Shown here in pieces: positions 1 to 25,880 of a stretch of DNA of 39,641 bases. Origin of the DNA: Sphingomonas bacterium (GTDB taxonomy: Bacteria > Pseudomonadota > Alphaproteobacteria > Sphingomonadales > Sphingomonadaceae). A program made the translations under genes and the position numbers. The stretch is from the NCBI RefSeq assembly GCF_028292925.1, contig NZ_JAQGLK010000032.1:1-39641 (forward strand). The letters run 5' to 3'. Position 1 is the stretch's first letter. The number at the start of each line of letters is the position of its first letter. The notes under the pieces were generated by a model. The model had not been told where the DNA came from, searched no databases, and was given only the letters and a program-made list of their open reading frames with translations.

Positions 1-3000
1 CGGATCGCCCTGACCGATCTCGGCGATCTGGAAGGGCCGCCGTGCTGGCGCACCGCGGTCGGCCCGCGGGCAGGGCTTGAAGAGGATGATGCCGCCGAGC
101 CAGGCGGCGTGGTGCCGGACGGCGTAGTTCCGGACGGCGAGATCCGGGAGGAGGAAGCACCCGCCGCGGAAGCGCCCGAGCTGGATCCTGTCACGGCGCC
201 ACGGCCCATCCGGCTGGTCACCCTGACCCCGCGGCAGCGGCAGGCATGGCGCCGCCACTGGCAGGCGCAGGCCAAGCTGCTGGACCGCGCCATCGAACAC
301 TGGTTTGCCAGCTGCGCCGCCAATCCGAAACGGCGGTTCGATGCAGACGCCCTCTCCGCCCTGTCGGCTATTCCGACGCGTTGGGTGCGGCGCCTGATGT
401 TGAACGATCATGCGCCGGGCACCGATCGTGGCGCCCCGCCGAACCGCTTCAACCCGATGAAGCCGATCCCCGCTTTGCGTCCGCTCGTGCTCCGCTGCCG
501 TCAGGGCGAGACGGTGGAGATCCTCGTCGACAACTGCCTCAGCGAACGAACGATCGGCTTTCACCTCCAGGGAGCGGGTCTGTCCGCTGGCGGCGGCGAG
601 GGGGTGCGATATGCCGACGGCAGCTGGCTCGGCAGCAACGAGCGCAGCACCATCGCGCCGGGCGAACAGTGGACGCTGCGCTGCCATGCCGAACATCAGG
701 GCGTGTGGCCGATCAACGACCTGGCCGACGTGCGCGGGAGCGAGCAGGGCACCAATGTCCACGGCCTGTTCGGCGTCCTCACCGTCGAGCCCCAGGCATG
801 CCGCTGGCGGGATCCCGAAACCGGAGAGGATCTGACGGACGAGCCCTGGGCGGTGTTTCTGGATCTCGACATCATCCCGGACGACGAAAATATCGCCGAT
901 CCCCGCCACAGGCCGTTCATCGACTTCCATAGCGACGACGTGCCGAGGAGCTTCCGCGAGTTTACCGTTTTCATCCATGACGAGCCCGAGGTGCATTCGG
1001 GCCTCCACACGGTCGGCGAGCATAGCATCATGCCGCTGTCGTATCGTGCCGAGCCCATGCACAACCGCTTGCCCCACCGGATGCGCCGCCGGGTCGAGGA
1101 ATCACGGCAGAGGCCGTTCCCGCCGGGGCCTGGCGGCACCGATCGCAACGCCTTCGGCTGGCGGCTGGGCGACGAACTCGAGGAACAGTTCCTGACCGCG
1201 CGGAATTCGGGGGGCGAGTGGCTGGAATATGTCGCCGGGGAGGAGCAGCACCATAGTTCGTGGCTGTTCGGCGATCCGGTGACGCATGTGCAGCGCGCTT
1301 ATCGCGGCGATCCGTGCCGGGTGCGGCTGATCCACGCGGGGGTCAAGGAAACCCACGTCTTCCACCTCCACGTCCACCAGTGGCGCGCGGTTGCCAGCGA
1401 TTTCGCACCACCATCGGTGCACGGCACCGAACCCGACGGCACGCCCAGGCACAAAGGCTCGCAGTTGCTCGATTCGGTCACGATCGGGCCGCAGACGGGC
1501 ACCACCATCGAGCCGCTTTATGGATCGGGCAGCCGCCAGCACGCCTTCGGCGACGTCATCTGGCACTGCCATCTCTATCCGCACTTCCACCACGGCATGT
1601 GGGGGCTGTGGCGGAGCTACGATCGCGAGGTGACGGGCACGCGGCCCTACCCGGACGGCAGCCACTGCGCGCCGCTATGCCCCTTGCCCGGCCGCCCGCC
1701 CGAGTCTTCGACATTGCAGCTGCCGGGTTTTCCCTGGTTCATCGATGGACGTTTTCCCACGAAGTCGCCTCCGCCCCCGGTCGGCGATACCATCACGCCC
1801 GGTGGCAGGCGCCTGCTGCTGAAGATGCCGCGCGCCTCCGCGCTGGAGCGGGACGCGATGCCGCCTGCGTGCCGCAACGGGTCGCAGCCCGGCGCCGTCT
1901 TCGTCGATCTCGATGGAAAGGCGATGCAATGGAACGCCGCCGCAGGCCTGCCGCCGCCGCGCATCGTCAGCTACGATGTCGAAGTGCTGGCCGGGGAGGT
2001 GCAATATAACGTGGATGGCTGGCACGATCCGCGCGGCCACCGATACCGGCTGTTGGCGGCCGAGATACGCGAGCAGGATGCCACCGGCGCGTACCGGATC
2101 ACCTGCCGGCAGCAATTCGCGGCTGGCCCCGATCCGATCCCGCAGCCCCTGTTTCCCCGCGCCAACCACGGCGATATCGTCGAGTTGCGGAACCACAACA
2201 GCCTCGACCACTTCGCCGCCGATGCCTTCGATCACGGCCAGCTGCCCGTCGAGTGCGGCCTGCACGTCCACCTCGTGAAGTTCGATCCGCTCGCCGCGGA
2301 TGGGTCTTCGACGGGTTGGAACTACCTGTCGGGCGCCAGCTGCCGCAGCGTCGTGGGGCACGACGGGCCGGGCGAACAGCGCACCGTCAGCCTCCACCGC
2401 TGGATCATCGACGAGGAGTTCGGTCCCTGCTTTTTCCACGATCACCTGCTCGCCAACTTCCGCCAGAAGCATGGGCTGTTCGCGGCACTGATAGCTCAGC
2501 CGCACGGCTCGCAGTGGCTGCGCGCCGACGATCAGAGTGCGATCGCATGGAGCGATGCCGAAGCGGTGATCGTTCCGCCGGCCGCCACCGGCCTGCCGCC
2601 ATACCGTGAGGCGGGGCTCGCGATCGGCGATTTCGTGCCGCTTCTAGATCGCTCCGGCCGGCCTCTCAACCCACCGTCCACCCTGTCCGGCGATGACGAT
2701 CCCGGCAGCATGGCGGTCAACTACCGCTCTGCCCCGCTCACCTTCCGGGGAAGCGATCCATCCAAATGGTTCAGCACCAGCGCGCGCGCCCGAAGGAGCT
2801 TCGCCGGCGAACGGGGCGATCCCGACACGCCGGTGATCCGCACCTATCCGGGCGAGCGTTTGCGCCTGCGGCTGATCCAGGGCTCGCACGAGGAGCAGCA
2901 CAGCTTCGCGGTCCACGGCCTGCGCTGGCGCCGCGACTGGGGCAATCCGCGATCGCCCCTCGTCAACCAGCAGACCGTCGGCATATCGGAGGCGTTCACG

Positions 3001-4479
3001 CTCGACGTCGATCCGGCGGCCGGATCACCTTACGGGTCGGGGGACCATCTCTGGCACTTCAGCACCGCTGACGATCTCTGGCTTGGCTGCTGGGGGTTGA
3101 TCCGTTCGCTGCCGCCGATTCCCAGGAACACCGACGCCTTCGCGCCGCTGCCAGATTATGTGCGCACCCCGAAGGACGCACGGGACCGCCTGCGATCGGC
3201 CCGTGCGGCTCCCGCCATCGATCCCGCCCGGGTTCGCACTTTCGTGGTGGTCGCGCAGCGAACCGAGCACGAGTTCGCGGGCAAGGCGCTGACCGATCCC
3301 TGGGGCCTGATCTACCGGCCGGTCCCGTTCGACCAGGCGGATCTGGATCAAGCGATCGCGGAGGAGACGTGGCCGCTGAGCGAAGTGCCGCCGATCGACG
3401 AACCGCTCGTGCTGCGCGCGCGGTGCAGAGAGTGGGTGCGCGTGATCCTGGTCAACGACCTGATGGAAGAGGATGGCGGTGCCGAAGACGGGGAGGCAGG
3501 CGACATCGAGTTCGGCGTCGAACCCTCCCCGCCGAGGCTGCCGCTGGAGCATCTCGACGAACTCTACCGCCCCGATCGCCGCACGGTGAGCTCCCGTGTG
3601 TCGTTGCACGCCAGCCTGTTGCGCTACGATGTCGGCAAGTTCGACGGCAGCTATGTCGGGCGCAACCAGGACGGAACGGTTGCACCTCGCCCACGGCGGG
3701 GTGCCGGGCATGCCGGGCTGCACACCGCCGATGTCGAGATTCCGGGGGCCGTCGTTCACCGGGGCGATCATCAAGGGCGCAACTGGCGCGAATATTGGTG
3801 GTATGCGGACGAGGCGCTGGCACCCGATACGTGCGCCGAAGGGGCAGGGCAGGTCTGTTTCCTTCACGACATGGCCGACATCCGCAACCATCGCCACCAC
3901 GGCCTCATCGGCGCGCTGATCGTGCTGCCGGGCGACGTGACGCCCTATGTTCCGGGAGACGACATCGAGGCCTGGTCCGGGCTGGAGGCGGAAATGCGGG
4001 TGGGCGGCACGCGGGTCGCGCATGAGGCGGTCATGTTCTACCAGGACGGCCTTCGCCAGTTCGTCGGGGGGCATCCCGATCATCCGGTGCCGGATGCCGA
4101 CCCGACCGACGATCCCGAGGATAGCGGGCAGAAGGCGATCAACTATCGGACCCATCCGGTGCACCGGGGCGTGATATCGCGCGACGGGACAGCGCCGGCG
4201 CCTCTGGCGACCCTGGCGTCGCCGGGCACGCTCTGGTTGCGGGTGGTCGGCGCGAACGACAAGCCGCGCCAGCACAGCCTGACGGTCCATGGATGTGCCT
4301 GGCAGGATGCGCCGTGGGTGTCCGCTGGTCCGATGGTGGGTGCGATCTCCGGTATCGCGCCGTGTCGCGCCGAAAACGTCGTGCTGCACTTCCCCCATGC
4401 GGGGGATTACGCCGCCCGCACCGGAGCATTCCGCTGGGGAACCGAACATGGCGTCTGGGCGACGATCAAGACCTACTGA
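1..4479 (+). CDS. Giant multicopper oxidase-like protein, three tandem two-cupredoxin units (5' partial)
   Basis: The reading frame is open from base 1, so the N-terminus lies outside the window; a GTG at 109 is only an internal candidate start (1456 residues from there, used for numbering below). Cupredoxin motifs recur three times, at roughly 140-500, 650-1000 and 1080-1456. The third and fourth copper motifs are intact only in unit 1: HVFHLHVH at 416-423 and HCHxxxHxxxxM at 486-497, supplying type 1 Cys487, His492 and axial Met497. The first and second are intact only in unit 2: HVH at 719-721 and HDH at 777-779. All other copies are degenerate, for example WPIND at 200-204 and HDM at 1253-1255. 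All ten ligands of one type 1 plus trinuclear site are therefore present once. A copper-dependent oxidase is likely. Large bacterial relatives such as MnxG oxidise manganese, but the substrate here is unknown. No signal peptide can be judged. Confidence 0.85.
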   Translation, partial: RIALTDLGDLEGPPCWRTAVGPRAGLEEDDAAEPGGVVPDGVVPDGEIREEEAPAAEAPELDPVTAPRPIRLVTLTPRQRQAWRRHWQAQAKLLDRAIEHWFASCAANPKRRFDADALSALSAIPTRWVRRLMLNDHAPGTDRGAPPNRFNPMKPIPALRPLVLRCRQGETVEILVDNCLSERTIGFHLQGAGLSAGGGEGVRYADGSWLGSNERSTIAPGEQWTLRCHAEHQGVWPINDLADVRGSEQGTNVHGLFGVLTVEPQACRWRDPETGEDLTDEPWAVFLDLDIIPDDENIADPRHRPFIDFHSDDVPRSFREFTVFIHDEPEVHSGLHTVGEHSIMPLSYRAEPMHNRLPHRMRRRVEESRQRPFPPGPGGTDRNAFGWRLGDELEEQFLTARNSGGEWLEYVAGEEQHHSSWLFGDPVTHVQRAYRGDPCRVRLIHAGVKETHVFHLHVHQWRAVASDFAPPSVHGTEPDGTPRHKGSQLLDSVTIGPQTGTTIEPLYGSGSRQHAFGDVIWHCHLYPHFHHGMWGLWRSYDREVTGTRPYPDGSHCAPLCPLPGRPPESSTLQLPGFPWFIDGRFPTKSPPPPVGDTITPGGRRLLLKMPRASALERDAMPPACRNGSQPGAVFVDLDGKAMQWNAAAGLPPPRIVSYDVEVLAGEVQYNVDGWHDPRGHRYRLLAAEIREQDATGAYRITCRQQFAAGPDPIPQPLFPRANHGDIVELRNHNSLDHFAADAFDHGQLPVECGLHVHLVKFDPLAADGSSTGWNYLSGASCRSVVGHDGPGEQRTVSLHRWIIDEEFGPCFFHDHLLANFRQKHGLFAALIAQPHGSQWLRADDQSAIAWSDAEAVIVPPAATGLPPYREAGLAIGDFVPLLDRSGRPLNPPSTLSGDDDPGSMAVNYRSAPLTFRGSDPSKWFSTSARARRSFAGERGDPDTPVIRTYPGERLRLRLIQGSHEEQHSFAVHGLRWRRDWGNPRSPLVNQQTVGISEAFTLDVDPAAGSPYGSGDHLWHFSTADDLWLGCWGLIRSLPPIPRNTDAFAPLPDYVRTPKDARDRLRSARAAPAIDPARVRTFVVVAQRTEHEFAGKALTDPWGLIYRPVPFDQADLDQAIAEETWPLSEVPPIDEPLVLRARCREWVRVILVNDLMEEDGGAEDGEAGDIEFGVEPSPPRLPLEHLDELYRPDRRTVSSRVSLHASLLRYDVGKFDGSYVGRNQDGTVAPRPRRGAGHAGLHTADVEIPGAVVHRGDHQGRNWREYWWYADEALAPDTCAEGAGQVCFLHDMADIRNHRHHGLIGALIVLPGDVTPYVPGDDIEAWSGLEAEMRVGGTRVAHEAVMFYQDGLRQFVGGHPDHPVPDADPTDDPEDSGQKAINYRTHPVHRGVISRDGTAPAPLATLASPGTLWLRVVGANDKPRQHSLTVHGCAWQDAPWVSAGPMVGAISGIAPCRAENVVLHFPHAGDYAARTGAFRWGTEHGVWATIKTY

Positions 4480-4708: not shown

Positions 4709-5713
4709 ATTTCGACCAAGGCCGAACACCAGCCGCATGCGTGGCATGCCGACCATCTGAGGCTTGCCGTCGAAGCGGCTGGCGTCGCGTTGTGGGCGTG
4801 GAACGTCGATGATGATCGCTTCACGATGGACGAACGCGGCTTTGCGTTGTGGGGGCTGCCGTGGCGCAATGCAGTCACGTTCGAGCAGCTTTCGGAGCAC
4901 ATCCATCCTGCCGATCGCGATCGCGTAAGAGCCGCCTTTCAGGCGACGCGCGCAATCCTGGGGCCGTACGAGAGCGACTTCCGGATCATGGTGGGCGAGG
5001 AGATCCGCTGGATCGCCGCGCGCGGCGAGGGTGAGGATGTCGGCATCGTGGGCCGAACCATGTTCGGCATCTTCCTCGATGTAACCGGCCGCAAGCAGGC
5101 CGAGGAAGGCCACGAGCTGCTGGCGGGCGAGATGAGCCACCGCGTCAAGAACCTGCTCGCCATCGCCGCCGGGCTGACGGAGATCACGTCCCGCACGACG
5201 GTGACCAAGACGGATATGGCGCGGGAACTGATCCAGCGGCTGACCGCACTGGGCCGCGCCCATGATCTCGTCAGGCCGCTGCCGCAAAACCAGGGATCTG
5301 CGGCGCTGCTGGGCGATCTGATCGCGGTTCTTCTGGCTCCCTATGACGATATGGGCGCATTCAGCGGACGTATCCGGGTGGCTGTCGAGCGGATGGGCGT
5401 CGGCGAAGCGGCGGCGACCAGCCTTGCGATGGTGGTGCATGAACTTGCCACGAACTCGCTCAAATACGGGGCGCTCTCGTCCGAAGCGGGCACCCTCGAT
5501 GTCTCGTCCCGCTCCTGCGGCGAGGAGCTTGCGCTCATCTGGATGGAGCGCGGCGGGCCGGCGGTGGAGGCGCCGACCGGCGCGGGCGGGTTTGGCAGCG
5601 AACTGGTCCAGCGCAGCGTGGCGCGTCAGCTTGGCGGAACGATCGACTATAATTGGGCGGAGGGCGGCCTGATCGTCACCCTTCAGCTCGATCGAACGAA
5701 GCTCAAGGGTTAA
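4709..5713 (+). CDS. PAS-domain HWE-family sensor histidine kinase
   Basis: Numbering is from an ATT at 4709. A PAS fold occupies about residues 15-128, followed by the kinase core. The H-box EMSHRVKNLL has phospho-acceptor His144, the N-box is VVHELATNSLKYG (about 243-255), and the HWE-type WxE is Trp278/Glu280. It is probably a soluble cytoplasmic sensor, as there is no membrane segment. Start choice is unusual. The frame contains no ATG or GTG upstream, and the first conventional candidate is TTG 4790. That start would cut off LRLAVEAAGVALW, the normal first PAS helix. A GAGGA at 4698-4702 lies six bases before ATT 4709, giving a start MSTKAEHQ. The frame is closed by TGA at 4697-4699. No response regulator is adjacent. 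The family is certain; the exact start is not. Confidence 0.85.
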   Translation: MSTKAEHQPHAWHADHLRLAVEAAGVALWAWNVDDDRFTMDERGFALWGLPWRNAVTFEQLSEHIHPADRDRVRAAFQATRAILGPYESDFRIMVGEEIRWIAARGEGEDVGIVGRTMFGIFLDVTGRKQAEEGHELLAGEMSHRVKNLLAIAAGLTEITSRTTVTKTDMARELIQRLTALGRAHDLVRPLPQNQGSAALLGDLIAVLLAPYDDMGAFSGRIRVAVERMGVGEAAATSLAMVVHELATNSLKYGALSSEAGTLDVSSRSCGEELALIWMERGGPAVEAPTGAGGFGSELVQRSVARQLGGTIDYNWAEGGLIVTLQLDRTKLKG

Positions 5714-5787: not shown

Positions 5788-7176
5788 TCAGCGGCCGACG
5801 GCAAGGATATCGAGCGGCGACCAGCCGCCGCCCATCGCCTGGTACAGCGCCACATGGCTGGTGAGCCGGTCCGTCCGGGCCTGGACGAGCGAAAGCTCGG
5901 CGGTCAGCAGGCTGCGCTGGGCATCCAGCTGTTCGATGTAGGCCGAATAGCCGGCACGGTAGCGGTTCGACGCATTCTGCAGCGCGCCGCGGGCGGCTTC
6001 GGTCTGGCGGAGGAGCTCGGCGGCCTGTTCGCCGGTGCGGCGGACGCCGGCCAGTGAATCGTCGACTTCGCGGAAGGCCACCAGCGCCGCACGGCGATAG
6101 GCGAACGCGGCCTGGTTGCGGCGTGCGGCGGCGGCTTTTTGCTGCGCGGCAAGGCGGCCGGCATCGAAGATCGGGGCAAGGATGCTCGCGCCGAGCGAGA
6201 ACAGCCCGACCGGATCGGACAAGGCGGTCGACAGGACCAGGCCGGCGGAACCCGTCAGCGCCACATTGGGAAGCATCGCCGCGCGCTGGCTGTCGAGCAG
6301 GCGATCGGCGGCGACCAGCGTCTGCTCCGCCTGGAAGAGATCGGGCCGGCGGCGCAGCAGATCGGCGGGCAACCCATCCGGTATCGCGGCCGCCGCCAGA
6401 TCGTCCAGCGGGCGGCCGCGCGGTATCGCGCCGGGTGCCTGACCCGTCAGCAGGGACAGCGCATTTTCCTGGCGGCTGATCGCCAGCTCGGCGGCGGGCA
6501 CCAGCTGCGCGGTCGCGCTATATTCTCCCTCCGCCTGCCGATATTCCAGCCGTGAGGAATAACCTGCCTCGTAGCGCCGGCGCGCGATCCGCAGCGCATC
6601 GGCGCGTGCGGCCAGCGTCGCCCGCGCTATGGCGAGCCGTTGATCGAGCGCGCGCAGCGTTATGTAGCCGGACGCGGCACTCGCCGCCGTCGCCAGCCGC
6701 ACCGTATCGCGCGCGCCCTCGCTGGCCAGTAACTGCGCGCGGGCGGCGCGGGAGGCGAGCCGGAGGCGACCGAACAGGTCCAGATCGTAGCTTGCGGTCA
6801 CCGCCGGCTGGGCGACCAGCGCGCGGCTCGGAGTGCCGAGCGGGCTGAGCGACTGCCCCTGCGCCTCGGGGAGCGCGCCGCCGATCTGCGGCGATAGCTG
6901 CGCGCGCGACAATGCCTCGGCCGCGCGCGCTTCCTCCACGCGGGCCGCCGCGATCTCGATGTCGATGTTGCTGGCCAGCGCGCGCGAGACGAGCGCGCTG
7001 AGTGCCGGATCGCCGAACGCCTGCCACCACCCGGCCCGGATCGCACCGCCCGCGGGCAATTCCGTCCGCCAGGATGGCGGCGGGGCGATGGCCGCGGCGG
7101 CGGGCCCCTCCGGCCGTTTGCCCGGCAGCGTGCAGCCCGCCAGAGCGCCAGCGGCAACCAGGGCGGCGTACCTCAC
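5788..7176 (-). CDS. NodT-type outer-membrane efflux lipoprotein (TolC-like)
   Basis: The 462-residue protein is an outer-membrane factor of the RND/MFS tripartite efflux type. The N-terminus is a lipoprotein signal with lipobox LAGC (residues 12-15). The body carries two related alpha-hairpin segments rich in Ala, Arg and Glu, and the C-terminus has the family signature LYQAMGGGW. It starts at GTG 7176, and this codon overlaps the stop of the upstream adaptor gene (GTGA, 4 bp), so translation is probably coupled. It would form the outer-membrane channel for the EmrA/EmrB proteins encoded just upstream. Drug, organic-acid or aromatic export is plausible; the substrate cannot be read from the sequence. 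Confidence 0.9.
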   Translation of the reverse strand: MRYAALVAAGALAGCTLPGKRPEGPAAAAIAPPPSWRTELPAGGAIRAGWWQAFGDPALSALVSRALASNIDIEIAAARVEEARAAEALSRAQLSPQIGGALPEAQGQSLSPLGTPSRALVAQPAVTASYDLDLFGRLRLASRAARAQLLASEGARDTVRLATAASAASGYITLRALDQRLAIARATLAARADALRIARRRYEAGYSSRLEYRQAEGEYSATAQLVPAAELAISRQENALSLLTGQAPGAIPRGRPLDDLAAAAIPDGLPADLLRRRPDLFQAEQTLVAADRLLDSQRAAMLPNVALTGSAGLVLSTALSDPVGLFSLGASILAPIFDAGRLAAQQKAAAARRNQAAFAYRRAALVAFREVDDSLAGVRRTGEQAAELLRQTEAARGALQNASNRYRAGYSAYIEQLDAQRSLLTAELSLVQARTDRLTSHVALYQAMGGGWSPLDILAVGR

Positions 7177-8348
7177 CGCAGCGGTGGACCGGGCGAGATG
7201 TCGATATGCGCCTGCACCGACATGCCCGGGCGCAGCCGCTGCGCCAGCTTTTGGTTCGGATCGATCCGGATTCTGACCGCGATCCGCTGCGGCACCTTCG
7301 TGAAGTTGCCGGTCGCGTTGTCGGGCTTGAGCACGGCGAACTCGCTGCCCGTCGCAGGCGAAATGCGCTCCACCCGGCCGGTTATGCGGGCATTGTGCAG
7401 GGCATCCACGGTGAAGCGGGCCCGCTGCCCCACGGCGATGCCTGCGGTCTGCGCTTCCTTGAAGTTGGCGATCACCCAGACGTCTGCCGGCACGAGGAAC
7501 ATCAGCTGCGATCCGGCCGTGACGTACTGCCCCGCGCGCACGCCGACTTCGCTCAGCTCGCCCGCTTCAGGCGCGCGGATCACGGTGTTGGCAAGGTCGA
7601 TCCGGGCGAGGCGGAGCGCGGCCTCCGCACCCGAGACCCCGGCCTGCTGGCCACCGCGGCCGACCTCGACGGTGCGGATATCCTGCCGGGCGATCTCGCG
7701 CGCGGCCCGCGCCTGCGCCACCCCCGCCTGGGCCTGGCGCAGCGCCGCCAGCGTCTGATCCCGTTCCCGCAGCGAGACCGATCCGTCCTGCACCAGATCG
7801 TCCACGCGGTTCATGTCGGCCTGCGCGCGCATCAGCTGCGCGGCGGCATTCTGGACGGCCGCATCCTGCGCCTGCAGGCTGGCCGCGCGGCTCGCCGCCG
7901 TCTGCCGGCTGTTGGCGAGCGTCGCTTCCTGGCCGGAAAGCGCGGCCTGCGCCTGATCGACACGCTGCGCGTAGATGCGCTGATCGATCACCACCAGTGG
8001 CTGACCGGCGCGGACGGTGGCAAAATCGCGCACCAGCACGCGGGCGACGTAGCCGGAAACCTGCGGCGCGATAACGGTCACGCGGCCGCGCACATAGGCA
8101 TTGTCCGTCGACTCCGCGGCCGTCGTGAATGGCCAGATCCGCCATGCCGCAAGCACCGCGACGATGCCGGCCAGCGCGAGCAAGGCGATGACGAGGAGCG
8201 CCGGGGAGGAGAGGGCCGGCGGCGCCCAGCCGGACCCGGTGGGGGCGGGCGGAGCAGCCGGCGCCCTGGCCGCATCCTCCGCGATCTTTTCCTCTGTCCG
8301 CGGTGTGGCGGAAACGGCGGAAGGGGCGGGTTCGCGCCTGTCGGTCAC
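7173..8348 (-). CDS. emrA: EmrA-type HlyD-family periplasmic adaptor
   Basis: This 391-residue membrane fusion protein has a Pro/Ala-rich cytoplasmic tail of about 48 residues. One membrane helix follows (about 50-69), then the lipoyl-like half motif around TVIAPQVSGYVARVLV. A long Ala/Gln-rich coiled-coil hairpin comes next, and then the second lipoyl/beta-barrel part (NTVIRAPEAGELSEVGVRAGQYV). It bridges an inner-membrane MFS pump and an outer-membrane channel. Both ends overlap neighbours by 4 bp: the GTG start sits in the emrB stop, and its own stop sits in the GTG of the NodT gene. The three genes thus form a tight operon. The N-terminal tail before the helix is longer than in E. coli EmrA and is low-complexity. 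Confidence 0.92.
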   Translation of the reverse strand: MTDRREPAPSAVSATPRTEEKIAEDAARAPAAPPAPTGSGWAPPALSSPALLVIALLALAGIVAVLAAWRIWPFTTAAESTDNAYVRGRVTVIAPQVSGYVARVLVRDFATVRAGQPLVVIDQRIYAQRVDQAQAALSGQEATLANSRQTAASRAASLQAQDAAVQNAAAQLMRAQADMNRVDDLVQDGSVSLRERDQTLAALRQAQAGVAQARAAREIARQDIRTVEVGRGGQQAGVSGAEAALRLARIDLANTVIRAPEAGELSEVGVRAGQYVTAGSQLMFLVPADVWVIANFKEAQTAGIAVGQRARFTVDALHNARITGRVERISPATGSEFAVLKPDNATGNFTKVPQRIAVRIRIDPNQKLAQRLRPGMSVQAHIDISPGPPLR

Positions 8349-9997
8349 GAACGCGCTTCCCGCCGCTCGCGAAGGTGACGGCGCGTGAGCAGGAAGGCGA
8401 GGTAGGCGAAGGTCATCGCCGCCAACAACGCGACAAGTCGGAATACGTCGTCATAGGCCAGAATATTTGCCTCCCGCGTTGCCGCCTGGGAGAGTAGCGC
8501 GGCGCCCTCGGCCTGCCGGAGTGCGGGATCGGCGATAACGCGGGCCACCCCGCCGGCGCCGGCCTGCAGCCGGGCCTGCACCTGCGGATCGGTCGGGTCG
8601 ATCGTCTGGACGATGGCCGCGCTGTTCGCCTTCTCGCGCACCGCCTGGTACGTGCCCAGCAGCGCCGATCCGCCGAGGCCTCCGATCGAGTTGACGATCC
8701 CGAACAGCGCGATGAAGCTGATGATATGCCCGGTGCCCTGCGCCAGGGCCCGCGTCAGCCCGAACAACAGCGCCGGGCCGAGGAAGAATGCGGCGGAAAA
8801 GGCGATCAGCGCCTGCGTGAAGTAAAGCTGCGGCGCGCGCGTCAGGCTGGTCGCGTGCGAGTCGATATACGCAGCGACGGCGACCAGACCGATCACCAGC
8901 ATCACCGGATGGGTCAGCCGTTTCACGTCGATCGTCGCCGCGCTTGCTGCGACGCCGGTCACGGTAGCGGCGAAGATGATCAGGAAGAAGACGATCAACT
9001 GATCGTTGTTCTGCCCGAGCACCGTCAGCAGCCCGACCGCCCCGGATGTCTGTTCGGAAAGCACGATGCGCGCCATCACCGTCACCACCGTGAAGCGCAG
9101 GATATCCGCACTCGCCAGCCAGCGGGTATTGAGCAGCGGGTTTGCGCGGCCATGTTCGATGACGAGTGCCGCCGCGAGCATCGGGATCGCGGCGAGCAGC
9201 GCCCACCCGATCCAGGCCGATTGCGTCCACCACACGATGCGCCCGAGGCCGAGTACCGCGGCGAACAGCGCCATGGCGCCCGCGAACAGCGGGAAGGTAA
9301 GGAAATCCAGCCCCTCGAACGCCTTCTGCCGCGTCGTCGGCGGCAGGCGGAAGGCGAGCACCGCGGCAAGGCTCATCATCGCCAGCCCAAGTTCGAACAG
9401 GTACAGCGTGCGCCACTGGCTCATCGCCAGCAATTCCGGCGAGAACAGCCGCGCCAGCGGCGTCGCGCATTGCGGAATGCCGATGCCCACCACTACCGCG
9501 CGCAGCCGCCACTCGGCCGGGAAGGACTGCATGAAATAATAAAGCGCGAGGCTGCCGAGCGGCGCCGCGGTCATCCCGCTGACCGCGCGTACCATCACCG
9601 CGGACGAGAAATCCTGTACGAACAGGTGGGCAAACGTGAAGACGACGTACAGTGCCAGGAAGATGATCGCGAACGGGCGGAGCCCGAACTGCTGGCGGAA
9701 CTTGATCATCAGCAGGTTGATGCTGACGTTGGTCATCACATAGACGGTCGGCAGCCACGCGGTCTGCACCGGATCGAGCCCGAGCGCCCCGCCGAGCTGG
9801 GTGGCGTTGACGGCGATCAGCGCGTTGCCGAACCCGCCGGTCAGCCCGACGAGGATCGCGACGAGCGCGTAGGCGATGCGCCGCCGCATCGGGTGTGCCG
9901 GCGATCCGGGCGATCCCGGCATGGCCGGGGCCTCATGGGGCGCGAACGCCCACTCCTCTTCCGCAAGGAATTGCCGGATCTTGCGGGCAATCGTCAT
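8345..9997 (-). CDS. emrB: EmrB-type MFS (DHA2, 14-helix) efflux transporter
   Basis: A 550-residue inner-membrane transporter of the DHA2 family. The first about 32 residues are hydrophilic. About fourteen hydrophobic helices follow, the first beginning near RRRIAYALVAILVGLTGGF. The order emrB-emrA-nodT matches the family's usual tripartite pump. The start is ATG 9997, preceded by an AAGGGG ribosome site in a short gap. The N-terminal cytoplasmic extension and the sequence following the second helix (TQLGGALGLDPVQTAWLPTVYVM) are typical of the proteobacterial EmrB/FarB group. No TetR or MarR regulator is encoded next to it, so control is either distant or by general promoters. Confidence 0.92.
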   Translation of the reverse strand: MTIARKIRQFLAEEEWAFAPHEAPAMPGSPGSPAHPMRRRIAYALVAILVGLTGGFGNALIAVNATQLGGALGLDPVQTAWLPTVYVMTNVSINLLMIKFRQQFGLRPFAIIFLALYVVFTFAHLFVQDFSSAVMVRAVSGMTAAPLGSLALYYFMQSFPAEWRLRAVVVGIGIPQCATPLARLFSPELLAMSQWRTLYLFELGLAMMSLAAVLAFRLPPTTRQKAFEGLDFLTFPLFAGAMALFAAVLGLGRIVWWTQSAWIGWALLAAIPMLAAALVIEHGRANPLLNTRWLASADILRFTVVTVMARIVLSEQTSGAVGLLTVLGQNNDQLIVFFLIIFAATVTGVAASAATIDVKRLTHPVMLVIGLVAVAAYIDSHATSLTRAPQLYFTQALIAFSAAFFLGPALLFGLTRALAQGTGHIISFIALFGIVNSIGGLGGSALLGTYQAVREKANSAAIVQTIDPTDPQVQARLQAGAGGVARVIADPALRQAEGAALLSQAATREANILAYDDVFRLVALLAAMTFAYLAFLLTRRHLRERREARS

Positions 9998-20982: not shown

Positions 20983-23082
20983 TTGGCGACCGCCAACGCA
21001 TCGCAGACATCCGCTTCGTTCCACGAGGACGGATCCCCCGACCGGCTGGCGATCGACACCATCCGCACGCTTTCGATGGATGCGGTGCAGCAGGCCAATT
21101 CCGGGCACCCCGGTACGCCGATGGCGCTCGCCCCCGTCGCCTATACGCTGTGGCGGCAGTTCCTGCGCTACGACCCGGCAACGCCCGACTGGCCCAATCG
21201 CGATCGCTTCGTCCTCTCCGTCGGGCACGCATCGATGCTGCTCTATGCCTTGCTCCATCTGGCCGGTGTCGAGGAGATCGGTGCCGATGGCGTGAAATCC
21301 GGCAAGCCGGCGGTCAGCCTGGACGATATCCGCCAGTTCCGGCAGCTCGACTCCAAGACGCCCGGCCACCCCGAATATCGCATGACGACCGGGGTGGAGA
21401 CGACGACCGGGCCGCTGGGGCAGGGCTGCGGCAATTCGGTGGGCATGGCGATCGCCGAGCGGGCGCTGGCCGCGCGGTTCAACCGGCCCGATTTCACGCT
21501 GTTCGATCACGACGTCTATGTGCTGTGCGGCGATGGCGACATGATGGAGGGCGTATCCGGCGAGGCAGCGTCGGTGGCCGGGCACCTCGCCCTTTCCAAC
21601 CTGTGCTGGATCTATGACAGCAACCATATCTCGATCGAGGGTTCGACCGAGATCGCCTTCACGGAGGATGTCGGGAAGAGGTTCGAGGGCTATGGCTGGA
21701 ACGTCATCCATGTCGACGATGCCAACGATACGCAGGCCGTGGCCGATGCCCTCGCCACCTTTCGCGCGACGGCGGACAAGCCGACCCTGATCGTCGTCCA
21801 TTCGGTGATCGGCTGGGGATCGCCCCGCGCCGGCAGCGAGAAGGCGCACGGCGAACCGCTGGGCGAGGACAATATCCGCGCCACCAAGAAGGCCTATGGC
21901 TGGCCCGAGGATGCCAAGTTCCTGGTGCCGGACGGCGTGGCGGAGGCGTTCAATACCGCGCTCGTCGCCAATGGCGGCAAGGCGCGGGAGGAGTGGCAGG
22001 CGTTGTTCGAGGCGTATCGCGCGCGGTTTCCCGCCGAGGCGACGGAGTTCGACGGCTTGCGCGAGGGCAGGATCCCCGCAGGCTGGGATGCCGACATTCC
22101 CACCTTCCCGGCCGATGCCAAGGGCATTGCGTCGCGCGATGCCGGCGGCAAGGTGATCAACGCGATCGGCCCGCACGTGCCGATGCTGATCGGCGGCGCG
22201 GCCGATCTTTCCCCCTCCACGAAGACCAACCTGACCTTTCAGGGCGCGGGGTCGCTCGAGCCCGGCAACTATGGCGGCCGCAACGTGCATTACGGCGTGC
22301 GCGAACATGGCATGGGGGCGATCGCCAACGGCATGGCGCTCAGCTACCTTCGTTCGTACACCGCCACCTTCCTCGTCTTTGCAGACTATATGCGGGCGCC
22401 GATCCGGCTGGCGGCGATCATGGAAGTGCCGACGATCTTCGTCTTCACCCACGATTCGATCGGCGTCGGCGAAGACGGGCCGACCCACCAGCCGATCGAG
22501 CATCTCGCCACGCTGCGTGCGATCCCCGGTCTCGACACCATCCGGCCGGGCGATGCCAACGAGGTTGCCGAGGCGTGGAAGGTGGCGCTGAGCCACACCC
22601 ATGAGCCGACGGCGCTGATCTTTTCGCGCCAGGCGCTACCGACGCTCGACCGGGGCCGCTACGCCCCGGCCGCCGGGCTGGCCAGAGGCGCGTATGTCCT
22701 GGCCGATGCGGAGGGCGGCGATCCGGAGGTGATCCTGATCGGGACGGGCAGCGAAGTCTCGCTGGTGGTCGACGCGCACGAGAAACTGACGGCCGAGGGC
22801 GTTCGCTCCCGCGTGGTGTCGATGCCGAGCTGGTATCTGTTCGAAAAGCAGGACGTGGAATATCGCGAGAGCGTGTTCCCGCCATCGGTACGCCCGCGCG
22901 TCGCGGTGGAGCAGGCGGGTTCGATGGGCTGGGATCGCTACGTCGGCACGGACGGGACGACGGTTACGATGTCGACCTTCGGTGCGTCCGCACCGCTCGC
23001 CAAGCTTCAGGAAAAGTACGGCTTCACGGTCGAAAACGTGGCGAAACTCGCTCGGGAACTCATCGAAAAGGCCAGGGCATGA
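20983..23082 (+). CDS. tkt: Transketolase
   Basis: A 699-residue thiamine-diphosphate enzyme of the non-oxidative pentose phosphate pathway, moving two-carbon ketol units between sugar phosphates. Early residues include QANSGHPGTPMALAPVAY. The ThDP/Mg motif starts at GDGDMMEGVSGEAASVAGH and ends near WIYDSNH. The pyrimidine domain has FVFTHDSIGVGEDGPTHQP, and the C-terminal domain follows. The start is TTG 20983, placed seven bases after AGGAG; the long in-frame extension upstream is Arg/Pro-rich and non-homologous. Its stop overlaps the next gene's ATG by 4 bp. It heads the seven-gene sugar phosphate operon. Confidence 0.95.
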   Translation: MATANASQTSASFHEDGSPDRLAIDTIRTLSMDAVQQANSGHPGTPMALAPVAYTLWRQFLRYDPATPDWPNRDRFVLSVGHASMLLYALLHLAGVEEIGADGVKSGKPAVSLDDIRQFRQLDSKTPGHPEYRMTTGVETTTGPLGQGCGNSVGMAIAERALAARFNRPDFTLFDHDVYVLCGDGDMMEGVSGEAASVAGHLALSNLCWIYDSNHISIEGSTEIAFTEDVGKRFEGYGWNVIHVDDANDTQAVADALATFRATADKPTLIVVHSVIGWGSPRAGSEKAHGEPLGEDNIRATKKAYGWPEDAKFLVPDGVAEAFNTALVANGGKAREEWQALFEAYRARFPAEATEFDGLREGRIPAGWDADIPTFPADAKGIASRDAGGKVINAIGPHVPMLIGGAADLSPSTKTNLTFQGAGSLEPGNYGGRNVHYGVREHGMGAIANGMALSYLRSYTATFLVFADYMRAPIRLAAIMEVPTIFVFTHDSIGVGEDGPTHQPIEHLATLRAIPGLDTIRPGDANEVAEAWKVALSHTHEPTALIFSRQALPTLDRGRYAPAAGLARGAYVLADAEGGDPEVILIGTGSEVSLVVDAHEKLTAEGVRSRVVSMPSWYLFEKQDVEYRESVFPPSVRPRVAVEQAGSMGWDRYVGTDGTTVTMSTFGASAPLAKLQEKYGFTVENVAKLARELIEKARA

Positions 23083-25880
23083 CGAGCCGCCTCGCAGACC
23101 TCCATGCCGCGGGACAGGCGGTGTGGCTCGATTTCGTCGACCGCAAGTTCCTGTCGGCCGGTGGCCTGCGCGATCTGGTCGCCAACGACGATCTGACCGG
23201 CGTCACCTCCAACCCGTCCATCTTCGAAAAGGCGATGGGGGCGGGCGAGGGCTATGACGAAGGGTTCAACGCGTTCCTCGGCAAGGCCGATGCAAGCGTT
23301 GTCGACACCTACGAATCGCAGGCGATCGCCGACATCCAGGCCGCAGCCGACGATCTGCGCGGCAAGTATGACGCGCTCGGCGGGCAGGACGGCTATGTCA
23401 GCCTGGAGGTCTCGCCCTATCTCGCCCACGGCACCGATACGACGATCGCCGAGGCACGGCGGCTCTGGCAATCGGTCGACAAGCCGAACCTGATGGTCAA
23501 GGTGCCCGGCACCAAGGCCGGCACCCCCGCTATCCGGCAGCTGATAGAAGACGGGATCAACATCAACGTCACGCTGCTGTTTTCCCAAAGCGCGTATGAG
23601 GCGGTGGCCGACGCCTACATCGCCGGGCTGGAAGCGCGTGTCGCCAAGGGCGCGCCGATCGACCGCATCGCCAGCGTCGCAAGCTTCTTCGTCAGCCGGA
23701 TCGACGCGGTGATCGACAAGGCGATCGACACGCGGCTCCTGGACGGGGACCCTGAGGCCGATGCGCTGCGGGCGATCCGCGGCAAGGTCGCGATCGCCAA
23801 CGCCAAGCTGGCGTACGTCCACTATCAGGCGCTGATCGCCAGCCCGCGGTGGCAGGCACTGGCGGCCAAGGGGGCGATGCCGCAGCGCCTGCTCTGGGCG
23901 TCGACCGGCACGAAAGACCCGGCTTTCCCCGACACGCTCTACATCGACAGCCTGATCGGGCCGGACACCGTCAACACCATGCCACCCAAGACGATGGATG
24001 CCTTTCGCCATCACGGCACCGTCGCCCCGACGCTTACCGACGGCGTTGGGGATGCGCGCCGCGTTCTGGCCGAGGCGGAACGGCTCGGGCTCGACCTGGC
24101 GGGTGTTGCCGAGGCTCTGGTGGCGGAAGGGGTGCGCCAGTTCGCCGACGCCGCCGATACTTTGCTGGCCGTCGTCGCCGGCAAGCGCGCGGCATTCCTC
24201 GGCGACCGGCTGAACGCGATGACCGCGGCCCTGCCCGAGGCGCTGGGCGAAGCGGTCGAGGAGCGGCTGGAGGCGGCGCGGGCGGGTGCCTGGTCGCGCC
24301 GGTTGTGGGCGGGCGATGCGACGCTGTGGACCGGCGGGGACGAGGCCCGGTGGCTCGGCTGGCTCGCCGCCGGGCGCGGCGATCAGGTCGTGTGCGACGA
24401 TCTTGCCGCGCTGGCCGAGAAGGCGCGTGGCTACGCGGATGCGGTGCTGCTCGGCATGGGCGGATCGAGCCTGGGGCCGGAGGTGCTGTCGGCGATCCTC
24501 GGCTCGGCGGCAGGCGCGCCCCGGCTGCACGTTCTCGACACGACCGATCCGGGGCAGATCGGCACCGTTGCAGCCGCGATCGATCCGGCGAACACGTTGT
24601 TCATCGTCTCGTCCAAGTCCGGTTCGACGATGGAGCCGGAGTTGCTGCGCGCCTATTTCTACGATCTTGCGGGCCGACGAGGCGACAACTTCATCGCCGT
24701 CACCGATCCCGGCTCGAAGCTGGAGGAGACGGCCGGGGCGGACGGGTTCGCGCGTATCTTCCCCGGCGATCCGGCAATCGGCGGCCGCTACTCCGTCCTG
24801 TCGGCATTCGGGATGGTTCCCGCAGCCGCGATCGGCATCGATGCGGCTGCTTTCTATGCGGCGACGTTGCCGATGGTGCTGGCCTGCGGGGCGGATGCGC
24901 CGCCGGCCGCCAATCCGGGCGTGCGGCTGGGCGTGATCCTGGGCGAGGCGGCCGCGATCGGGCGCGACAAGCTGACCATCGCCGCGTCGCCCCGGCTGGC
25001 GCCGTTCGGGGCGTGGCTGGAGCAGTTGATCGCGGAATCGACCGGCAAGCAGGGCACCGGCATCGTTCCCGTCGATCTCGAACCGATCGGTGAGGCCGAA
25101 GCGTACGGGGTCGACCGCCTATTCGTGCACCTCCAACTGGCTGGGGACGAGGATGCCGGGCTGACCGGCAGGCTTGCCGGGCTGGCGGCGGCGGGGCATC
25201 CGGTGATCACGATCCGCCTCGCAAGTGCCGATCTGATCGGGCAGGAGTTCTTCCGCTGGGAGGTGGCCACGGCCATCGCCGGGGCGGTGATCGGCATCGA
25301 TCCGTTCGACCAGCCGGACGTCGAGGATGCCAAGATCGCCACCCGCAAGCTGGTCGACGCCTATGAGCGATCCGGCGCGCTCGATCCGGAAACCCCGCTC
25401 TATGAGGATGCCCAGCTGGCGATCTTTGCGCCCGGCGATCCGGGCATGGCCCCGACCGACCCGAAGCTGATCCTCTCCACCCTGCTCCAGGCGCTCCATC
25501 CCGGCGACTATTTCGGCGTGCTGGCCTATCTGGAGCGGAACGCAGCGCACGCCGCAGCGATCACCCGGATCCGCACCGCGGTGCGCGATGCGAAGGCCGT
25601 GGCGACAGTCGGGGGGTTCGGGCCACGTTTCCTCCACTCCACCGGGCAGGCGTACAAGGGCGGGCCGATCGAGGGCGTGTTCCTGGAGGTGACGCGCACC
25701 GCGGACCCGGACATCGCGATACCCGGACACCGCGCCGCTTTCGGCACGGTGCAACTGGCACAGGCGCGCGGCGATCTCGACGTGCTCGCCAGCCGCGGCC
25801 AGCGCGTGCTGCGGGTTCACCTGAAGAACGGCGACATTGCGGTGCTCGAAACGCTGGTCTCCGCTGCACTTGCCGCCTGA
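23079..25880 (+). CDS. tal-pgi: Bifunctional transaldolase / glucose-6-phosphate isomerase fusion
   Basis: The 933-residue protein joins two enzymes. Residues 1-about 365 are a transaldolase with [12 protein letters not shown] (41-52) and Schiff-base Lys141 in [11 protein letters not shown]. Residues from about 400 onward are a phosphoglucose isomerase with [13 protein letters not shown] (near 457) and the phosphate loop [11 protein letters not shown] (near 511). An alanine-rich linker (about 370-410) separates them. Both halves keep their catalytic landmarks, so both should be active. The fusion is known in several alphaproteobacteria and acetic acid bacteria. It would link fructose-6-phosphate made by the non-oxidative branch directly back to glucose-6-phosphate for the zwf product downstream. 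ATG 23079 overlaps tkt by 4 bp. Confidence 0.94.

Follow-up and report, generated by a model that had tools for sequence, protein, structure and literature searches.

MnxG, the multicopper oxidase of Bacillus sp. PL-12, works with MnxE and MnxF. Its wider kind has been surveyed by Vasin et al. (2013; PMC3600357), and in that paper all the bacterial six-domain oxidases analysed carry the histidines of the trinuclear copper cluster in domains 2 and 3 and their mononuclear sites in domain 2 only, while the ferroxidases of Chlamydomonas and Dunaliella also have trinuclear histidines in domains 2 and 3. The authors contrast this placement with that of ceruloplasmin, whose trinuclear cluster lies between domains 1 and 6, and derive the 2/3 arrangement from a six-domain ancestor through loss of sites. 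With regard to copper delivery, a 2010 review (PMC2855505) describes PpoB2 of Marinomonas mediterranea, which reportedly supplies copper to the tyrosinase encoded in its own operon but not to the multicopper laccase PpoA; only one protein of the PpoB2-type membrane copper-chaperone family is given a role there. Here we compare with these systems an oxidase gene at the left edge of the window, the whole stretch of 39,641 nucleotides of Sphingomonas DNA that was analysed.

Domain units and copper ligands of the window oxidase

The oxidase frame runs without a stop from window base 1 to 4479 (1492 aa), and window base 1 is also base 1 of its contig, which we call C60. Its nearest relative, the 1638-aa oxidase of locus L023 (Pseudoroseomonas), is 75% identical. 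Residues 161-285 of the L023 protein match the stretch after window codon 25 (E 1.3e-56), and residues 136-160 align weakly with window codons 1-25 (E 0.018), which places about 135 residues of the window protein beyond the contig edge. The contig edge thus truncates the gene, whose true start lies off the contig and is not the GTG at 109 from which an earlier note counted its residues. That GTG is 36 codons into the open frame, and the earlier residue numbers are converted to the open-frame numbers used here by adding 36. The part missing from the window includes a strand with which relatives begin (VPIVYTLEGDHDPNG in L023) and which, by eye, repeats where units 2 and 3 begin.

The earlier note had described three homologous two-domain units, and profile-profile comparison bears this out, with E values of 4.6e-37 for units 1 and 2, 4.4e-45 for units 2 and 3, and 6.8e-33 for units 1 and 3. 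It had also proposed that the sole complete ligand set is split, unit 1 carrying motifs III and IV and unit 2 carrying I and II, and the motifs are located as it said (Table 1). We aligned the window protein with 38 relatives whose stop-to-stop frames are 1100 aa or longer (39 rows in all); they reach down to 38% identity with it. Twelve ligand positions (H452, H455, H457, H522, C523, H524, H528, M533, H755, H757, H813, and H815) are invariant in 39/39 rows, the window included, and together they make up the full T1 and trinuclear ligand set across four motifs that marks the multicopper oxidase superfamily. Following the multicopper oxidase literature, we take H452, H528, C523, and the axial M533 to serve the T1 copper and H455 and H457 of motif III to serve the trinuclear cluster; H522 and H524 of motif IV presumably have the roles assigned to them in the same literature. 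With motifs III/IV in the first and I/II in the second of three homologous two-domain units, the protein has the unit and motif layout of the six-domain type with a 2/3 cluster described by Vasin et al.

Table 1. Oxidase features in the window. Residues are numbered in the open frame from window base 1; the fifth column gives the numbering of the earlier note, and fractions are rows of the 39-row alignment.
Feature	Position	Strand	Residues	Earlier numbering	Remarks
Six-domain (three-unit) MnxG-type multicopper oxidase	1..4479	+			N-terminus truncated at contig edge (G000:C60 base 1)
Motif III HVFHLHVHQW, unit 1 (domain 2)	1354..1383	+	452-461	416-423 (= 452-459)	H452, H455, H457 39/39
Motif IV HCHLYPHFHHGM, unit 1 (domain 2)	1564..1602	+	522-533	486-497	H522, C523, H524, H528, M533 39/39
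Motif I HVH, unit 2 (domain 3)	2263..2271	+	755-757	719-721	H755, H757 39/39
Motif II HDH, unit 2 (domain 3)	2437..2445	+	813-815	777-779	H813, H815 39/39
Decayed motifs III/IV, unit 2	2899..3093	+			H967 39/39, H972 32/39, D1025 38/39
Unit 3, cupredoxin-type fold without complete copper site	3178..4476	+			AlphaFold2 model; fold match to 9bxa; residual H1203, D1290, H1430

Elsewhere in the alignment the motifs are decayed, namely I and II in units 1 and 3 and III and IV in units 2 and 3, although D1025, H1203, D1290, and H1430 each persist in 38/39 rows, the missing row being a gap. The claim that unit 3 has lost all its motifs is right in that the unit lacks a complete site, but two of its histidines, H1203 and H1430, persist. 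No second complete copper site was found in the alignment or in the N-termini. Within the residues that precede the window start (the last 220 at most, upstream frame included), HxH occurs in 9/37 rows in differing contexts and 'HC' in 0/37 rows having such residues, so that no second motif set is seen upstream of the window start; a cluster supplied by the N-terminus, which would have spoken against the split set, does not appear among these 37 rows.

With E values up to 1 allowed, the PDB yielded a single sequence match, MnxG, chain A of 9bxa (E 8e-153). Motifs I to IV of the window oxidase pair one to one with those of 9bxa, so that the comparison with MnxG-type oxidases suggested earlier gives agreement at all four; the deposited protein is an H340A mutant, and its Ala at position 340 aligns with window H528. 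AlphaFold2 models were of moderate confidence for units 1 and 2 together (pLDDT 70.0, pTM 0.77) and scored 78.5 and 0.85 for unit 3. In both cases the best fold match was again 9bxa (units 1 and 2: VIA Z 19.8 over 726 residues with rmsd 3.5, Foldseek E 5e-54; unit 3: E 2.6e-28). The protein also matches Cu-oxidase_2 (E 1.5e-9), scoring 38.1 bits for PF07731, over the curated cut-off of 20.4 that we used for Pfam Cu-oxidase membership, and 17.1 bits for PF00394, under its cut-off of 21. Since it reaches only 212.8 bits against the NCBIfam MnxG equivalog NF041487, far under the cut-off of 3100, we call it MnxG-type and reject the name MnxG proper; the absent 135 or so N-terminal residues are unlikely to cause this shortfall. 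A search of the open-access literature for the MnxG trinuclear site together with cryo-EM returned nothing, which with that coverage is a weak negative.

The predicted position of the trinuclear cluster, at the interface of domains 2 and 3, is thus supported, because exactly that ligand set is invariant, the motifs align with MnxG in 9bxa, and Vasin et al. (2013; PMC3600357) report the same location. The earlier note had arrived at this position and had interpreted it as a permuted arrangement after triplication and loss; that interpretation is correct and was already in print in the same paper. The copper-site arrangement is therefore a known, published one, and the protein belongs to a known kind.

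Upstream operon of relatives, probable assembly gap, and distribution

A search for related loci around the oxidase gave 41. At 27 of them a DUF1326 gene (B) and a PpoB2-family gene (C) lie directly upstream on the same strand, and at 21 of those 27 a further gene (A) precedes them. L003 has C only, at a contig edge, and at L033 B and C are present but lie on the opposite strand. Nine loci (L026 and L036 to L043) have none of A, B, or C despite several kb of upstream sequence, among them L026, which falls inside the operon-bearing tree group, and L040, with 4.6 and 7.5 kb upstream, respectively; L017, L027, and L031 have under 1 kb upstream and are uninformative (27 + 1 + 1 + 9 + 3 = 41). Downstream of the oxidase, no gene family is common to more than five of the 41 loci. 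The oxidase copy at L040 (7542-12358, an Acidimicrobiales metagenome-assembled genome) is spread over three overlapping frames, from a frameshift or an assembly error.

Assignment of the two families rests on the L023 and L007 proteins, which score 153 and 139.5 bits for PF09948 (gene C, cut-off 28.7) and 54.7 and 61.2 bits for PF07040 (gene B, cut-off 25); B and C at the other loci were called with profiles built from these proteins. Both carry conserved residues, given here in L007 stop-to-stop numbering: C retains cysteines 160, 164, 195, 198, and 199 and methionines 203 and 217 in 29/29 sequences, and B retains cysteines 24, 26, 30, 32, and 43 and His 42 in 27/28, the exception being the divergent L033. 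Gene A frames (n = 22, including the copy described below) span 370 to 736 codons stop to stop, and a PKD-type domain was found in both A proteins scanned. The linkage of this oxidase subfamily to a DUF1326 and PpoB2 operon looks new; our literature search, weak in that it covered open-access text only, found nothing joining DUF1326 with DUF2182 or either of them with a multicopper oxidase.

In the window's own genome, the 5' part of gene A (locus L055, G000:C144:8599-9738) fills the last 1.1 kb of another contig, C144 (9740 bases), and runs off its end; it is 68% identical to the L023 gene A over residues 31-408. Since gene A is cut off by the end of C144 and the oxidase by the edge of C60, an assembly gap probably lies within the operon, and the two contigs would flank the part that holds the remaining genes. 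Judged by L023, the stretch with the end of A, all of B and C, and the beginning of the oxidase would measure about 2.5 kb. B and C were not found in this assembly (searches run without a positive control), and their presence is inferred across the gap. C144 also has frames that by eye are flagellar-like and phosphoglucosamine-mutase-like, and the same genome encodes a separate multicopper oxidase of ordinary size (618-aa frame, Cu-oxidase_3, G000:C220:16795-18381).

The rest of the window begins, directly downstream of the oxidase, with an HWE-type histidine kinase with a PAS domain (4790-5713, + strand). It is followed on the - strand (5788-9997) by an outer-membrane efflux protein, an HlyD-type adaptor, and a weak MFS frame below the curated cut-off, which look like a tripartite efflux set. 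A 933-aa frame at 23079-25880 (+ strand) matches transaldolase and then phosphoglucose isomerase; a transketolase gene precedes this fusion, and genes of the HAD-hydrolase and glucosamine-6-phosphate isomerase/6-phosphogluconolactonase types come after it, making up a pentose-phosphate cluster. No tRNA turned up in a scan of the window, nor any defence gene in a scan of three neighbours.

We placed 37 alignment rows and three plasmid relatives in one tree of 40 rows. A group of 29 rows with support 100 comprises the window, all 20 rows with A, B, and C, seven that have both B and C or show C at a contig edge, and L026; since the root is a midpoint root, this group is one side of a branch and not a proven clade. 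The other 11 rows have no operon, apart from the opposite-strand pair of L033 and the uninformative L031. So far the oxidase group occurs in Actinomycetota, Pseudomonadota, Gemmatimonadota, and Cyanobacteriota, the last through two rows from metagenome-assembled genomes that may be mis-binned. Phyla are mixed in the tree, and horizontal spread of the oxidase is likely. Among 58 relatives there was no full homologue and one weak partial match (E 2.2e-4), and of the other 384 genomes in a sample of the class a single one had matches that reached E 1e-20, and these were partial.

Plasmid-borne relatives, found in 30 records, are more distant, the best place of each lying under 60% identity. The operon status of the three plasmid rows in the tree was labelled by annotation and then confirmed by profile: the A, B, and C profiles gave no match on the three stretches, while B and C were detected on a Bradyrhizobium control stretch. 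DUF1326 and DUF2182 genes do occur on plasmids, adjoining each other in four of five neighbourhoods; in the fifth, whose gene table is incomplete, only DUF1326 is listed. In none of the five does the annotation show a multicopper oxidase within 5 kb. Because these plasmid pairs adjoin other genes, the B-C pair is evidently not exclusive to this oxidase but of general occurrence, and in the window's group it is tied to a multicopper oxidase.

Proposed mechanism and alternative readings

We read the window protein as a six-domain oxidase of MnxG architecture, with a T1 copper in domain 2 and a trinuclear cluster between domains 2 and 3, that would be metallated by the products of the DUF1326/PpoB2 operon, and we put the probability of this reading at about 0.85. 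If the invariant ligands are occupied by copper, the T1 site would accept electrons singly from the reducing substrate and pass them through the Cys-His link of motif IV to the cluster, where O2 would be reduced to water; the remaining, decayed cupredoxin domains would complete the ring. The DUF1326 protein (B) and the PpoB2-type protein (C) most likely load copper into the oxidase, and protein A may be a partner of the oxidase or a surface protein. To assume such delivery for a multicopper oxidase is to extrapolate from the characterised chaperone, because PpoB2 reportedly does not serve the laccase PpoA. Candidate substrates are Mn(II) or another metal first and phenols second, and the present comparison does not separate Mn(II) from phenols.

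The chief competing view is that the same fold and copper site belong to a laccase-like oxidase of phenols or other organic substrates rather than to a metal oxidase. The score under the MnxG equivalog cut-off is consistent with it, as are the PpoB2 and DUF1326 genes adjoining the relatives, given that the sole PpoB2 protein with a role reported in PMC2855505 serves a phenol oxidase; on a Caballeronia plasmid, a tyrosinase gene lies on the opposite strand some 2.3 kb from a DUF1326-DUF2182 pair. MnxG, however, is the closest characterised relative by both sequence and fold, and a phenol-specific feature was not identified in the oxidase, so that we consider organic substrates possible at rather less than even odds.

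Two other explanations concern whether the gene is functional and whether it is native. Decay of motifs I/II in units 1 and 3 and of III/IV in units 2 and 3 could indicate a structural protein with a vestigial copper site, a notion that we rejected as highly improbable on the invariance of all twelve remaining ligands in relatives as distant as 38% identity. A contaminant or mis-binned contig, bringing in an oxidase foreign to this genome, would fit the scarcity of homologues among the 58 relatives and the 384 class genomes, and third-position GC is slightly lower in the oxidase (0.82) than in four other genes (0.84-0.88). Against this, overall GC is even (0.681 in the oxidase and 0.682 in the rest of the window), this assembly has gene A on another contig, and the methylmalonyl-CoA mutase encoded with the oxidase on its contig shows 86% and 72% identity with two fragments in the one genome of the same genus. 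Contamination is accordingly judged unlikely on the mutase identity and the even GC, and the contig looks native.

Beyond the MnxG-type architecture, we suggest tentatively, as a proposal more doubtful than probable, that the window belongs to a distinct oxidase group with its own assembly operon, in which DUF1326 and PpoB2 would form one metallating relay and protein A would replace MnxE and MnxF as partner or mineral-facing scaffold. If so, DUF1326 would gain a function as half of a general copper-loading pair. The operon connects a multicopper oxidase of giant size with a family of membrane copper chaperones and with a domain of unknown function, in a group far removed from the Bacillus enzyme, and it makes testable both how giant oxidases acquire copper and whether this group oxidises manganese.

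Comparison with known systems

The predicted trinuclear site of the window oxidase lies between domains 2 and 3, as in the bacterial and algal six-domain proteins of Vasin et al. (2013), and its mononuclear site in domain 2 only, as in the bacterial ones; the available sections of that paper describe no group with an A-DUF1326-PpoB2 operon. Ceruloplasmin and hephaestin resemble it in their six-domain fold, and ceruloplasmin chains match the window models at E values of about 1e-10 to 1e-12. In PpoB1-PpoB2 of Marinomonas mediterranea, a copper oxidase gene likewise shares an operon with a PpoB2-type membrane copper chaperone, but the oxidase there is a tyrosinase and not a multicopper oxidase. 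MnxG of Bacillus sp. PL-12 (9bxa) is alike in its six cupredoxin-type domains and in the order and unit placement of all four motifs. It differs in sequence, with 35% identity over the aligned fold of units 1 and 2, in size, with 1227 aa against 1637-1638 in two relatives with complete genes, and in having MnxE and MnxF as partners where the window's relatives have the A-DUF1326-PpoB2 operon.
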